From the NCBI GenBank assembly GCA_947088675.1, contig CAMUHN010000029.1:1-38229 (forward strand): 38,229 nucleotides of DNA. The letters run 5' to 3'. The notes under the pieces are model-generated. The model worked only from the letters and a program-made list of their open reading frames with translations, ran no database searches and was not told where the DNA came from. Source of the DNA: an uncultured Roseburia sp. (GTDB lineage Bacteria > Bacillota > Clostridia > Lachnospirales > Lachnospiraceae). Positions within the stretch are counted from its first letter, which is position 1. The number at the start of each line of letters is the position of its first letter. Positions 2,653 through 35,323 of the stretch are shown here, in pieces. Position numbers and translations under genes: made by a program.

Positions 2653-2667
2653 AAAGAGAGGATTTTA

Positions 2668-2817
2668 GTGTGAAAAATCAGCTTGATAGCTGATTTTTCA
2701 CACATGAACTTGTTCATGTTGGCTATGTTGTGCCGGGAACGTCACAAATAAGCCCTGATCCGACAGGAGAAACTGCATTTGCAGATTTCTCCTGCGGTTC
2801 CTCGAACGTAAACGTTC
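2668..2817. repeat. Palindromic element copy A plus a train of hairpins before rbgA
   Basis: The lepB-rbgA gap is almost wholly palindromic. GTGTGAAAAATCAGCT (2668-2683) pairs perfectly with 2688-2703 around TGAT. ATGAAC/GTTCAT follows (2704-2717), then GTTG. Next come GGCTATGTTGTG (2721-2732) with CACAAATAAGCC (2743-2754), then CAGGAGAAA plus inner CTGCA (2764-2777) with 2780-2794, then GAACGT/ACGTTC (2804-2817). The GTGTGA...TCACAC ends and the TGAA/GTTCA hairpin with trailing GTTG recur at 35163-35243. This copy lacks the AAG bulge of the other copies and is the most divergent member. Confidence 0.7.
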
Positions 2818-2834
2818 TCGGAATGGAGATTATT

Positions 2835-6489: not shown

Positions 6490-6795
6490 ATGGCGGGGAA
6501 AGAAAAGGAGTTTGACAGAAACAGAACAGCTGTGGCAATCGCTTACGATCCAGGCGACACTGCGCCGAAAATCCTTGCGACAGGAAAAGGAGCGGTTGCG
6601 GAGCGTATTATCGAGACGGCAAAAGAAAATGACGTTCCTTTTTATCAGGATGATAAACTTGCGCAGACGCTCTCCAAATTGCAGATCGGCGATACCATAC
6701 CGCCGGAGCTGTATGAGGTGGTTGCCGAGATCCTGGTGTTTGTGGACGATATGGATAAGATGAAAGGAAAATTAAAAAATTCCGGGCTGCTTTAG
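6490..6795 (+). CDS. FlhB C-terminal-domain-like protein (YlqH-type)
   Basis: A 101-residue protein equivalent only to the cytoplasmic tail of FlhB/YscU, the substrate-specificity switch of type III export. The core AVAIAYDPGDTAPKILATGKG aligns with the segment just after the autocleavage site of FlhB, and DDKLAQTLSKLQIGDTIPPELYEVVAEIL with its helical end. The cleavage motif NPTH is replaced by NRTA and the membrane domain is absent, so it cannot act as a complete export gate. It follows the FliK-like gene by 17 bases. In flagella FliK signals to FlhB, so the pair may keep a related interaction (inference). Confidence 0.85.
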   Translation: MAGKEKEFDRNRTAVAIAYDPGDTAPKILATGKGAVAERIIETAKENDVPFYQDDKLAQTLSKLQIGDTIPPELYEVVAEILVFVDDMDKMKGKLKNSGLL

Positions 6796-6843
6796 TGTGA
6801 GAAGTACATCTAAGGCAAGTCGCGGCAAAGCTGCGGCATGGGG
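6795..6843. repeat. Palindromic element copy B (internally deleted)
   Basis: It begins GTGTGAGAAGTACATCTAAGGC on the last base of the upstream gene's TAG stop. It then joins directly to a right-end hairpin, GTCGCGGC (6819-6826) with GCTGCGGC (6830-6837), and ends ATGGGG. The left part matches copy C (32721) and the right part matches copy D (35256-35280). The right arm of hairpin 1 and all of hairpin 2 are missing. Differences from D in hairpin 3 keep pairing as G-U wobbles. Confidence 0.75.
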
Positions 6844-6858
6844 GTAGTGGACGGGAAC

Positions 6859-31527: not shown

Positions 31528-32721
31528 ATGAAACGTATCTATTTGACAGCGGTGTTCAGCGCGCTTCTGGTGCTGTTTGCGGTTACTGGTTTCCGTGTTC
31601 TGTGTTTTCATGATGACGCGGATCGTACTATGAAAATCGGTTTTCTCTACGTGGGGGATGCCAGCACTTCCTATACCTCAAACTTTATAAAAGCGCAGTC
31701 GGCGGTTGAACGGGAGTATGGTGATCGTGTGGAAACAATTGCGAAATACAATGTGCCGGATGGGGGCGAGGAGGAGGCTCTGCAGGAACTGGTCGACGAA
31801 GGATGCGCTTTGATCTTCTCTACAAGTTTTGCCTACGGAAACAAAGCAAAAGAATTTGCGGGCCGTTATCCCGATATCCAGTTTTGCCAGGCGACCTGCG
31901 CAAATGCCAATGAAGAGCCGGTATATTCCAATTATCACACGTTTATGGGAGCAATCTATCAGGGGCGTTATATCTCCGGCGTCGTGGCCGGTATGAAGCT
32001 TAGAGAGCTGATCGGGCAAAACGTGATTGACAGGAGCCAGGCAAAAGTCGGCTATATCGGCGCATTTGCCTATCCGGAAGTAATCTCCGGCTATACCGCT
32101 TTTTTTCTTGGGGTCAGGTCTGTCGTTCCGGAAGCAGAGATGACAGTGACATATACAAATTCCTGGAGCGACTATGCGCTGGAGAAAAAGTATGCGGCCC
32201 GGCTGCTTGCAGAAGGATGTGTGATTCTTTCACAGCATTCGGATACGGCAGGCCCGGCTGCGGCATGCGAAGAAACTATGCGGTCGCAGGCTGTCTATCA
32301 TGTGAGCTACAACCAGAGTATGGCTGATATAGCTCCGACAACTTATCTGGTCGGCTGCAAAATAAACTGGGAGCCCTATATTCTCGCGGCAGTGCAGGCC
32401 GTATTTGACGGGAAAAAAATTGAGGACTGTATGCGGGGGAACAAAAACGGCAATGATATCGGCGCAGGGTTTGACGAGGGATGGGTTCAAATGCTGGAAT
32501 TAAATGAGCTGATCGCGGCAGAGGGGACAAAAGAAGTGATAGAAGATCTGACCAGGCAGTTTGAAAAGGGAGGTTTGCAGGTGTTCCAGGGGGATTATAC
32601 GGGAGTTGACCCGAACGATGAGACAGATGTCTGTGATCTGAAGCAGGGCTATATGGAAAACGAAAACAGTTCGGCTCCGACGTTCCACTATGTGTTAAAA
32701 GATGTGATTACAGTGGAGTAG
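31528..32721 (+). CDS. BMP-family (PnrA/Med-like) substrate-binding protein
   Basis: A 397-residue exported or membrane-tethered binding protein. An N-terminal hydrophobic segment (about 5-25) is followed by a periplasmic-binding fold of the basic membrane protein family: MKIGFLYVGDAS, ALIFSTSFAYGNKAKEFAGRYPDIQFCQ, GRYISGVVAGM, KVGYIGAFAYPEVISGYTAFFLGVRSV and VYHVSYNQSMADIAP. Family members bind nucleosides. The only early cysteine (VLCF) does not make a good lipobox. No permease or ATPase genes of a BMP transporter are near. It lies 29 bases after the HD-GYP sensor gene, so it may present a ligand to that sensor (inference). Palindromic element C starts on its stop codon. Confidence 0.88.
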   Translation: MKRIYLTAVFSALLVLFAVTGFRVLCFHDDADRTMKIGFLYVGDASTSYTSNFIKAQSAVEREYGDRVETIAKYNVPDGGEEEALQELVDEGCALIFSTSFAYGNKAKEFAGRYPDIQFCQATCANANEEPVYSNYHTFMGAIYQGRYISGVVAGMKLRELIGQNVIDRSQAKVGYIGAFAYPEVISGYTAFFLGVRSVVPEAEMTVTYTNSWSDYALEKKYAARLLAEGCVILSQHSDTAGPAAACEETMRSQAVYHVSYNQSMADIAPTTYLVGCKINWEPYILAAVQAVFDGKKIEDCMRGNKNGNDIGAGFDEGWVQMLELNELIAAEGTKEVIEDLTRQFEKGGLQVFQGDYTGVDPNDETDVCDLKQGYMENENSSAPTFHYVLKDVITVE

Positions 32722-32785
32722 CGTGAAAAGTACATCTAAGGCTCATGCCAATGGGCATTTCGCCAAGACGTACTAAGTTTCACGC
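32721..32785. repeat. Palindromic element copy C (complete hairpin 1)
   Basis: GCGTGAAA (32721-32728) pairs with TTTCACGC (32778-32785), and AGTAC with GTACT. An AAG bulge sits on the right arm, and an inner hairpin ATGCC/GGCAT is enclosed. It begins on the final G of the upstream TAG stop. Compared with copy D, end pairs T-A become C-G and an inner A-T becomes T-A, both keeping pairing. Confidence 0.8.
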
Positions 32786-32790
32786 CAGAG

Positions 32791-32862
32791 AATCAAAAGC
32801 CATGTATGGCGTTGGATTCTCCGAAAGGATTGAGCCGCAGCTGCGCTGCGGCTCAATCCTTT
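32791..32862. terminator. Bidirectional terminator between converging genes
   Basis: The main stem is 17 bp and perfect: AAAGGATTGAGCCGCAG (32824-32840) with CTGCGGCTCAATCCTTT (32846-32862), loop CTGCG. Just before it a second imperfect palindrome, GAGAATC...GCCAT/ATGGC...GGATTCTC, spans about 32788-32821. It lies between the + strand BMP gene and the - strand AIM24 gene, so it can stop both. Confidence 0.8.
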
Positions 32863-32888
32863 CAGACAGACGGTTCAAACGGACGGGA

Positions 32889-34535: not shown

Positions 34536-34578
34536 GTGCGATTTAGAGCCGGAAGTGATTGTGTTCCGTATTTGGCTC

Positions 34579-34607
34579 TTGTGGGAAAGCAGAAAATGAG
34601 TTAAAAT
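34579..34607 (+). promoter_or_regulatory. Promoter of the DUF3788 gene
   Basis: TTGTGG (34579-34584), 17-bp spacer, TAAAAT (34602-34607), divergent from the TerD promoter about 45 bp away. Confidence 0.6.
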
Positions 34608-34639
34608 ATAAAAATCGAAATCAGGAGGAACGTATCCGT

Positions 34640-35059
34640 ATGACTGATTTACAGGATAAGAAAAATTGCCCTTCCTTTCAGGAAATAAGTGAATATGTAA
34701 AAAATCCCGTCTTCGTGCAATTTTGTTCAGAAATCAGGAAGATATATCAATGTATTGAAAAAATAGAATACAGTTCGTGTAGTTGGGAAAAGGGATGGAA
34801 CATTAAATTTAAAAAAGCCGGGAAAACATTATGTACCATATATCCGCGGGAATGCTATTTTACAGTTATGATTGTTGCAGGAGCAAAAGAAAAAGCGTCC
34901 GTTGAAGCAATTTTGCCGGAATGTACACCTGAATTATCTGAAATATATCATCAGACAGAAGAAGGAAACGGACAAAGATGGTTAATGATCGACTTAGAGG
35001 ATAAAGGGAGTTTGTATAATGATGTTCTGCGTCTGATAAAAATCCGCAGAAACTGCTAA
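34640..35059 (+). CDS. DUF3788 family protein
   Basis: A 139-residue cytoplasmic protein matching the DUF3788 pattern: PSFQEISEYVKNPVFVQFC, KIEYSSCSWEKGWNIKFKKAGKTLCTIYPRECYFTVMIVAG, and QRWLMIDLED near the end. The function of the family is unknown; members look like small stand-alone alpha/beta proteins. ATG at 34640 follows AGGAGGAA (34623-34630) at 9-base spacing. The frame remains open to 34559, but without a ribosome site. It is a single-gene unit with its own promoter, divergent from the TerD operon. Confidence 0.85.
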   Translation: MTDLQDKKNCPSFQEISEYVKNPVFVQFCSEIRKIYQCIEKIEYSSCSWEKGWNIKFKKAGKTLCTIYPRECYFTVMIVAGAKEKASVEAILPECTPELSEIYHQTEEGNGQRWLMIDLEDKGSLYNDVLRLIKIRRNC

Positions 35060-35129: not shown

Positions 35130-35158
35130 TTGACTTATGCTTTCAATCTGCGTAAGAT
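35130..35158 (+). promoter_or_regulatory. Promoter upstream of palindromic element D and the G1P dehydrogenase gene
   Basis: TTGACT (35130-35135), 17-bp spacer, TAAGAT (35153-35158). Transcription would start at about 35165, within the first bases of element D, so D would be the 5' leader of the downstream gene. Confidence 0.7.
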
Positions 35159-35162
35159 ATCA

Positions 35163-35280
35163 GTGTGAGAAGAACTTCTAAAGTATGCAGCAGGGGCTGC
35201 TTCACGGGGAAGTTCTAAGTCTCACACGTGAATAAAGTTCACGTTGCAGATATAAGTCGCAGCGAAGCTGCGACATGGGG
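35163..35280. repeat. Palindromic element copy D (fullest copy, three hairpins)
   Basis: Hairpin 1 is 35163-35227: GTGTGAGA with TCTCACAC, AGAACTTC with GAAGTTCT, a right-arm AAG bulge and an inner GCAGC/GCTGC stem. Hairpin 2 is GTGAA/TTCAC (35227-35243) followed by GTTG. Hairpin 3 is GTCGCAGC (35256-35263) with GCTGCGAC (35267-35274), then ATGGGG. Copies A, B and C each share one or more of these parts. It occupies the leader between promoter and G1P dehydrogenase. Confidence 0.8.
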
Positions 35281-35323
35281 ATATCATGGCGAAAAAAATA
35301 CGGCAGACGGGAGGAATTGAAAT

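Follow-up and report, generated by a model that had tools for sequence, protein, structure and literature searches.

Copies C and D of a palindromic repeat, found in a 38,229-nucleotide stretch of DNA from an uncultured Roseburia sp. (contig CAMUHN010000029.1, positions 1 to 38,229; hereinafter, the window), belong to an interspersed, patchily distributed family of elements in gut Lachnospiraceae. Probably, D, C and a third, reduced copy, B, are copies of a non-autonomous, mobile or formerly mobile palindromic DNA element of about 120 to 190 nt. The unit, as we reconstruct it, would consist of three hairpins: a long first stem, in which an unpaired TAA/AA is conserved and AAG bulges out, a second hairpin that varies between copies, and a third one followed by ATGGGGG. 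Such an element would move as DNA, probably through a trans-acting enzyme that recognizes the paired ends, and the need of this enzyme for paired ends would cause the spreading lineages to keep the pairing by compensatory change. The features of the window are listed below, with scores from R1, a covariance model of the first stem that was built from copies in the same genome and therefore under-counts weaker relatives; the second and third hairpins and the candidate target duplications were read from the sequence, and the hairpins of D were also folded.

35130 to 35158, plus strand: promoter-like sequence TTGACT-17-TAAGAT; two such sites were found against 1.2 expected in shuffles, and the hexamers are also present in a relative without D
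35156 to 35162, plus strand: GATATCA directly left of D, candidate target duplication
35161 to 35227, plus strand: first stem of copy D (R1, 81.2 bits), CA followed by the stems GTGTGAGA / AGAACTTC, with the unpaired TAA conserved; the inner part contains the hairpin GCAGC..GCTGC and the AAG bulge
35228 to 35242, plus strand: hairpin 2 of copy D, GTGAAT-AAA-GTTCAC type
35256 to 35280, plus strand: hairpin 3 of copy D, GTCGCAGC-GAA-GCTGCGAC, with the right end ATGGGG
35280 to 35286, plus strand: GATATCA at the right end of D, the first G being the last G of GGGG, candidate target duplication
32719 to 32785, plus strand: first stem of copy C (R1, 91.8 bits); TAG at 32719-32721 terminates the gene 31528-32721
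32788 to 32821, plus strand: hairpin 2 of copy C, GAGAATC..GATTCTC type
6793 to 6844, plus strand: copy B, in which an internal deletion has brought hairpin 3 and ATGGGGG up to the first 24 nt; also scored as a direct repeat
2666 to 2834, plus strand: copy A, of a second and longer type whose left end is similar; GGAATGGAG closes it before the ATG of a GTPase gene at 2835

The initial annotation described a single alignable family with four copies, at 2668, 6795, 32721 and 35163. At its core this description holds, and more strongly than first claimed. All four places carry part of it, but they are unlike each other and are not equal copies. The R1 matches of D and C (filters off) span the full 67 positions; the first stem starts with the G at 35163 in D and with the G at 32721 in C, and the model match adds the two preceding bases. 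Under the same settings, A scores 22.3 bits (E 6.7e-4), and B, as an internally deleted copy, is absent from the R1 matches up to E 10. The hairpin TGAA-GTTCA followed by GTTG, originally assigned to all copies, is present in A and D but not in B and C, whereas the GTCGC..GC hairpin with ATGGGG is present in B and D but not in A and C. The compensatory changes between C and D, that is, T-A to C-G at the second pair and AGAAC-GTTCT to AGTAC-GTACT in the inner stem, are real on reading both copies, as is the AAG bulge on the same arm of each. The predicted fold of D has an energy of -51.1 kcal/mol (z -6.09). C contains the other type of hairpin 2, followed by a different, 19-bp palindrome; this palindrome, with runs of A and T, replaces hairpin 3 at 32823-32863, lies between convergent genes and, judged by eye, looks like a bidirectional terminator. 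In B, TAG at 6793-6795 terminates the gene 6490-6795, which encodes a 101-aa protein whose match to the FlhB-type export family is confined to the C-terminal part. A has the left end and a TGAAC..GTTCA hairpin in common with the family, and its remainder is longer and different. The A-type element has seven distinct left flanks, the copy in the window included. It was also observed at loci L022, L027, L120, L351, L360 and L366, the copies being well conserved among themselves; in A and in most of the other copies followed through to their end, its long 3' part closes with a GGAATGGAG-like sequence immediately ahead of the start codons of different genes.

The anatomy of the first stem is best seen in alignment A2, which consists of 20 copies from the source genome. 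TA is followed by an 8-bp stem, G-Y-G-T-G-A-R-A, and a second 8-bp stem, AG-N4-TC; further inward, TAA and AA face each other unpaired, a 3-bp stem leads to an internal loop (TC/TTC), and a 5-bp hairpin closes the structure, with the AAG bulge on the 3' arm. At least two types of hairpin 2 occur across the copies, and behind hairpin 3 stands ATGGGGG or a similar sequence, often succeeded by TTAG. The ends of the element, GTGTGAGAAG on the left and CATGGGGG(T) on the right, are not complementary by eye. In A2, 94.4% of the cells are paired and 71 changes affect both sides of a pair, compared to 28.3 in shuffled alignments and at most 5 in slid controls. Alignment A6, with 38 sequences including copies from other genera, is fitted to the model and hence biased towards it, and its rows are related; nevertheless, 20 of the 24 pairs change on both sides, and the 168 both-sided cells compare to 48.1 in shuffled and at most 17 in slid controls. 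The unpaired TAA is near-invariant in A6 (36, 37 and 35 of the 38 sequences for the three positions), and the first A of the bulge is present in all 38. The covariation of the first stem is thus real and extends across genera, from which it follows that pairing mattered in the lineages that spread, be it as DNA or as RNA.

The family extends far beyond the window. In the source genome (G000; 3.17 Mb, 122 contigs, 87.6% complete), a BLASTN search with D yields 50 matches (E<=1), and R1 yields 48 (E<=0.01), at least one of which is an antisense reading of the same palindrome. Among 60 genomes, R1 matches were found in eight, the source genome included, all within the genus: there are 14 in G004, 13 in G020 and 15 in G023, and one or two in each of four other congeners. 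There was no R1 match in 28 of the 36 genus members of this first draw or in any of the 24 genomes of other families. G063, the closest of the relatives compared, was scanned separately and has 97 R1 matches (E<=0.01), some of which are antisense readings. In a set of 200 genomes, one per genus of the family, 16 contain R1 matches at E<=1e-4, the source genome included; scans of sets of more than 40 genomes were run with stricter filters. With a BLAST query that included the element, the element part matched in the source genome and in 11 more of 60 genus genomes (G004, G019, G020, G023, G063, G069, G070, G071, G077, G081 and G082), a set that includes genus genomes outside the first R1 draw. 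An Rfam cmscan of the window (E<=1) reported two tRNAs and two sub-threshold matches, none of them on an element.

Comparison of close relatives reveals differences in site occupancy. The flanks of 32 pieces from the source genome were joined and sought in G063, and nine pairs aligned. At the L104 site, the source genome has GGGGAATAG, the element and CATGGG, whereas G063 has GGGGAATAGAATGGG and no copy; the L098 site in G063 is also without a copy. At the site of D, G063 keeps the dehydrogenase gene and the same promoter-like sequence, with no recognizable D. In the remaining pairs, the place is occupied by part of a copy or by another small element, or the alignment is unclear. The reverse comparison shows the full copy missing from the source genome at nine of 11 G063 sites, the other two being uninformative. 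At several sites without a full copy, the source genome retains scraps such as TAGTGTGA or hairpin 3 in broken form. For L184 the two genomes correspond exactly: the source genome contains TAGTGTGA once, and G063 contains it twice with a 150-nt unit between; the tandem arrays of G063 are made of units of 133 to 153 nt. The check for target duplications found GATATCA (7 nt) on both sides of D, whereas L098 and L104 fit either a TA duplication or TTAG as the element end. The motif TAGYGTGARA occurs 79 times in the source genome, known copies included, compared to 17 for the reversed control, and many of the solo sites inspected look like left ends fused to right ends or left ends broken off at varying points. 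Judged by eye, the inspected sites (19 and 14 of the 79, two of the 19 being one place) are followed by elements, remnants or ordinary genes; an element carrying its own enzyme was sought behind them and rejected. As far as the sequences can tell, tandem units, site differences and remnants suggest an element that inserts, changes its tandem number and is eroded by deletions. The earlier suggestion of a recently spread palindromic element is borne out by high copy number, tandem arrays, presence or absence in close relatives, decayed remnants and patchy distribution.

The same sites allow a different reading, namely, integration of a site-specific recombinase type at a pre-existing TAGYGTGA core, so that the single copies in empty sites would be true targets and not scars. 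The empty sites L184, L181 and L182 of the source genome, which contain TAGTGTGA once where G063 has the same or a near form on both sides, fit this scenario, and so does the excess of TAGYGTGARA over the reversed control. However, the empty L104 site reads AATAGAATGGG, without a core; the homology of the solo sites extends for varying lengths into the element, as expected of remnants; and relatives that lack the element at the L101, L104 and L181 sites have no core there. We therefore consider this route improbable.

The source genome and its relatives harbor several hairpin families with similar ends in the same kind of place. L316 and L317 come from two genus genomes that are alike around the site; another hairpin element there, directly behind a TAG stop codon, has an internal deletion in one of the two. 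Further small hairpin types, for example, GCGTGAAATTAAAAATTTCAC..GAATGGGAGTTAG, were observed at L245, L306 and L367 and in the right flanks of L190, L206 and L207. In L365 (from position 586 onward), L372 (from 581 onward) and L376, TTAG[TC]GTGA follows an element-like right end and contains the GTG start of a gene, giving the impression that the element has come to supply the ribosome-binding site and the start codon; by eye, the L365 gene reads like a tyrosine recombinase.

Placement was analyzed on 84 non-tandem copies, 38 from the source genome and 46 from G063, G020, G023, G004 and G019. They were drawn from curated sets, namely, 45 copies kept of 71 matches in the source genome (left out were some weak sense matches of up to about 22 bits, antisense hits and duplicate readings of one place) and 61 kept of 78 in the other genomes (antisense hits and duplicates again removed, together with some sense matches that were weak or partial). 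The weak L132 was left out of the placement, stop-codon and orientation counts and kept in the wobble count discussed below; 'tandem' denotes a left-flank pattern and can err, as at L115 and L122. Genes around the loci were called with a purpose-written caller based on codon usage. The copies are strongly biased in orientation: 57 of the 84 are sense to both neighbors and two are antisense to both, with nine between convergent and eight between divergent genes and eight with one side uncalled. Removal of eight G063 loci that are known orthologs of source-genome sites leaves 52 and two, respectively (n=76). Replication strand as the sole cause of this bias was considered and rejected: with 20% of the genes assumed to be on the lagging strand, two antisense copies of 59 have a P of 2e-4. 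The sense bias exceeds the prediction of neutral insertion and may hint at a role of the transcript; of all the results, it speaks most strongly against copies that are purely passive.

The copies are also concentrated behind genes. A stop codon of the upstream gene lies at -12 to +7 of the left end in 19 of the 38 source-genome copies and 28 of the 46 others (47 of 84 in total), compared to 348 of 8,913 (4%) random non-coding positions in the same loci, elements included. In 25 of the 47 stop-adjacent copies, the stop is the TAG of the element, in eight it is the TGA of YGTGA, and in 14 it is located just before the left end. In a looser version of the test applied to the best copies from nine other genera, seven of the nine lie near a stop codon, as do 160 of 2,700 random positions. 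Of the 84 non-tandem copies, 58 have TA immediately before the first paired base, and the base before TAG varies between copies. We modeled the exact coincidences by treating each TA in the tolerated gap as equally likely, for copies with a sense upstream gene ending in TAA or TAG within 300 bp. In the pooled sample (44 of 76, the eight orthologous G063 loci dropped), TAG is exactly at the stop in 21 cases against 20.9 expected (P 0.58); taken separately, the source genome shows an excess, with 16 against 11.3 (P 0.003), and the other genomes do not, with nine against 11.3 (P 1.0). Short gaps between genes can account for the exact coincidences, and hence special targeting of stop codons is not demonstrated. 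A TAG stop is common at the L101 and L104 sites even without the element: among relatives lacking it, TAG terminates the gene in 10 of 16 cases at the former and in four of 10 at the latter (by eye). Under the mobile-element explanation, the surviving copies would be the least harmful ones, in sense orientation between a stop codon and the next gene, insertions elsewhere having presumably been removed by selection. The left end (TAG, or TGA in YGTGA) would supply or preserve the stop codon, and the right end, GGGGG or GGAGG, resembles a Shine-Dalgarno sequence; together with the stop on the left, it could make an insertion between genes harmless. The copies would later decay by internal deletion and change in tandem number.

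Selection on a folded RNA, originally offered to explain the copies, finds no support as their explanation. Selection on the sense RNA would make G-U commoner than A-C at the stem pairs, whereas the ratios are 29:26 in the 45 source-genome copies and 29:30 in the 61 copies from other genomes (58 vs 56 overall, P 0.93) and 18:18 in A6, which overlaps the other sets and is not independent of them; moreover, the genes next to the copies in the window belong to different, unrelated families. The differences between B and D in hairpin 3, noted at the outset as retaining RNA pairing through G-U, do include changes from A-T to G-U, but no family-wide excess of G-U over A-C accompanies them. Pairing is kept in the spreading lineages, and single copies drift without strand preference. 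This lack of preference fits a DNA structure that is needed for spreading, and effects on mRNA remain compatible with it. A class of structured cis-acting RNA, located in leaders or 3' untranslated regions, that regulates or stabilizes host transcripts and whose spread was selected, is an unlikely explanation. It would accommodate the sense orientation (57 copies sense to both neighbors vs two antisense to both), the conservation of the unpaired UAA, AA and AAG inside covarying stems and the proximity to stop codons in several genera, but it sits poorly with equal numbers of G-U and A-C mismatches, the decay of copies and loss of sites, the patchy distribution among congeners, and flanking genes that are unrelated as far as identified (partly by eye). 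For the discovery of RNAs, these observations carry a caution: covariation alone is no proof of RNA function given that mobile palindromes can produce it as well.

It is most unlikely that the copies are ordinary intrinsic terminators. Hairpins behind stop codons and the terminator-like palindrome that follows C would be expected of them, yet hairpin 3 is followed by ATGGGGG and not by a T run, and 57 of the 84 copies lie between co-directional genes. A scan at D gives a terminator-like site on the minus strand only, with no GC hairpin plus T run on the coding strand.

As a candidate mobilizer of the element, a Y1 transposase (PF01797) was sought in the two richest genomes, G000 and G063 (88% and 90% complete), without a match, and a resident Y1/RAYT mobilizer was rejected on these grounds; among 60 genus genomes, 20 have a PF01797 match. 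A specific form of the mobile-element explanation, possible but doubtful, is a single-strand DNA element of the IS200/IS605 or RAYT kind, inserted 3' of TTAG or TAG. In an attractive version of this route, which we take by analogy with IS200/IS605 elements, the two conserved CTAA stretches of the first stem would pair as guides with TTAG, the putative cleavage site. The TA left flank of 58 of the 84 non-tandem copies, the conservation of CTAA, the frequent right end GGGGGTTAG and the tandem junctions GGGGGTTAG-YGTGA are all in line with such a route, as is the report that GTAG REPs supply TAG stops (PMC3733652); conversely, the two richest genomes lack a Y1_Tnp match even though 20 of the 60 genus genomes have one, and some copies follow TAA or TGA rather than TAG. 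Insertion coupled to the transcript or to the termination of translation, for example, through an mRNA intermediate or a strand exposed behind a terminating ribosome, is very unlikely; if true, it would explain the near-exclusive sense orientation of the copies and their frequent location a few nucleotides from a stop, of any of the three kinds, in several genera.

D itself would be one of the insertions of the mobile element, at the predicted transcript start of a dehydrogenase-type gene. Its first stem begins 5 nt behind the promoter-like site of an iron-containing alcohol-dehydrogenase-type gene. An effect on the leader of this gene is possible, judging from the position of D, and any such effect would be incidental to the insertion. 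The genes that neighbor elements in the window belong to unrelated families, and nothing in the analysis shows that the elements act as a switch for one gene. Upstream of D, at 34559-35059, lies a DUF3788 gene; in the alignment, the G063 stretch upstream of the dehydrogenase gene appears to be without it.

For a major group of gut bacteria, the family would be an additional set of small repeats, one whose covariation is very clear and which reaches 97 model matches in a single genome. Sites differ between close relatives, and the sense placement near stop codons makes the choice of site versus survival directly testable. Literature searches, with most subscription journals outside their coverage, found no paper on this family. 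Known repeats offer several points of comparison. GTAG REPs are described in PMC3733652 as interspersed imperfect palindromes near the 3' ends of ORFs, in which TAG often is the stop codon; that text does not mention Lachnospiraceae, Roseburia, Eubacterium, Clostridi or Firmicutes. The family described here likewise consists of interspersed palindromes near 3' ends, with TAG often serving as the stop. In contrast to REPs, which measure 20-40 bp, its first stem alone measures 67 nt and is part of a three-hairpin unit, and there is no constant GTAG tag, with TA in 58 of the 84 copies and a varying base before TAG; furthermore, REPs have RAYT Y1 transposases, whereas no Y1 match was found here in the two richest genomes (88% and 90% complete). 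MITEs, such as RUP or the Correia elements, are also short, non-autonomous, structured repeats, but they are characterized by terminal inverted repeats and target duplications (PMC3049150), and terminal inverted repeats are not seen by eye in the present family. By size and by the Y1 search the family does not fit REPs, and by the reading of its ends by eye it does not fit MITEs. The BOX elements of Streptococcus pneumoniae are small modular hairpin repeats that vary in the number of modules and are thought to be parasitic; a BOX-encoded stop codon ends 36 pneumococcal CDSs, a likeness to those of ISSpn2 has been proposed for the terminal inverted repeats of BOX, and convergent gene pairs are enriched in BOX elements (PMC3049150). 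Going by this account, the present family resembles BOX in being made of small hairpin repeats that vary in unit number and supply stops, and differs in the absence (by eye) of terminal inverted repeats and in the location of 57 of the 84 copies between co-directional genes; it is set apart from BOX by description. On the best reading, then, the family works like REP or BOX repeats and is their relative in kind, filed as neither, with the judgment on BOX made by description.
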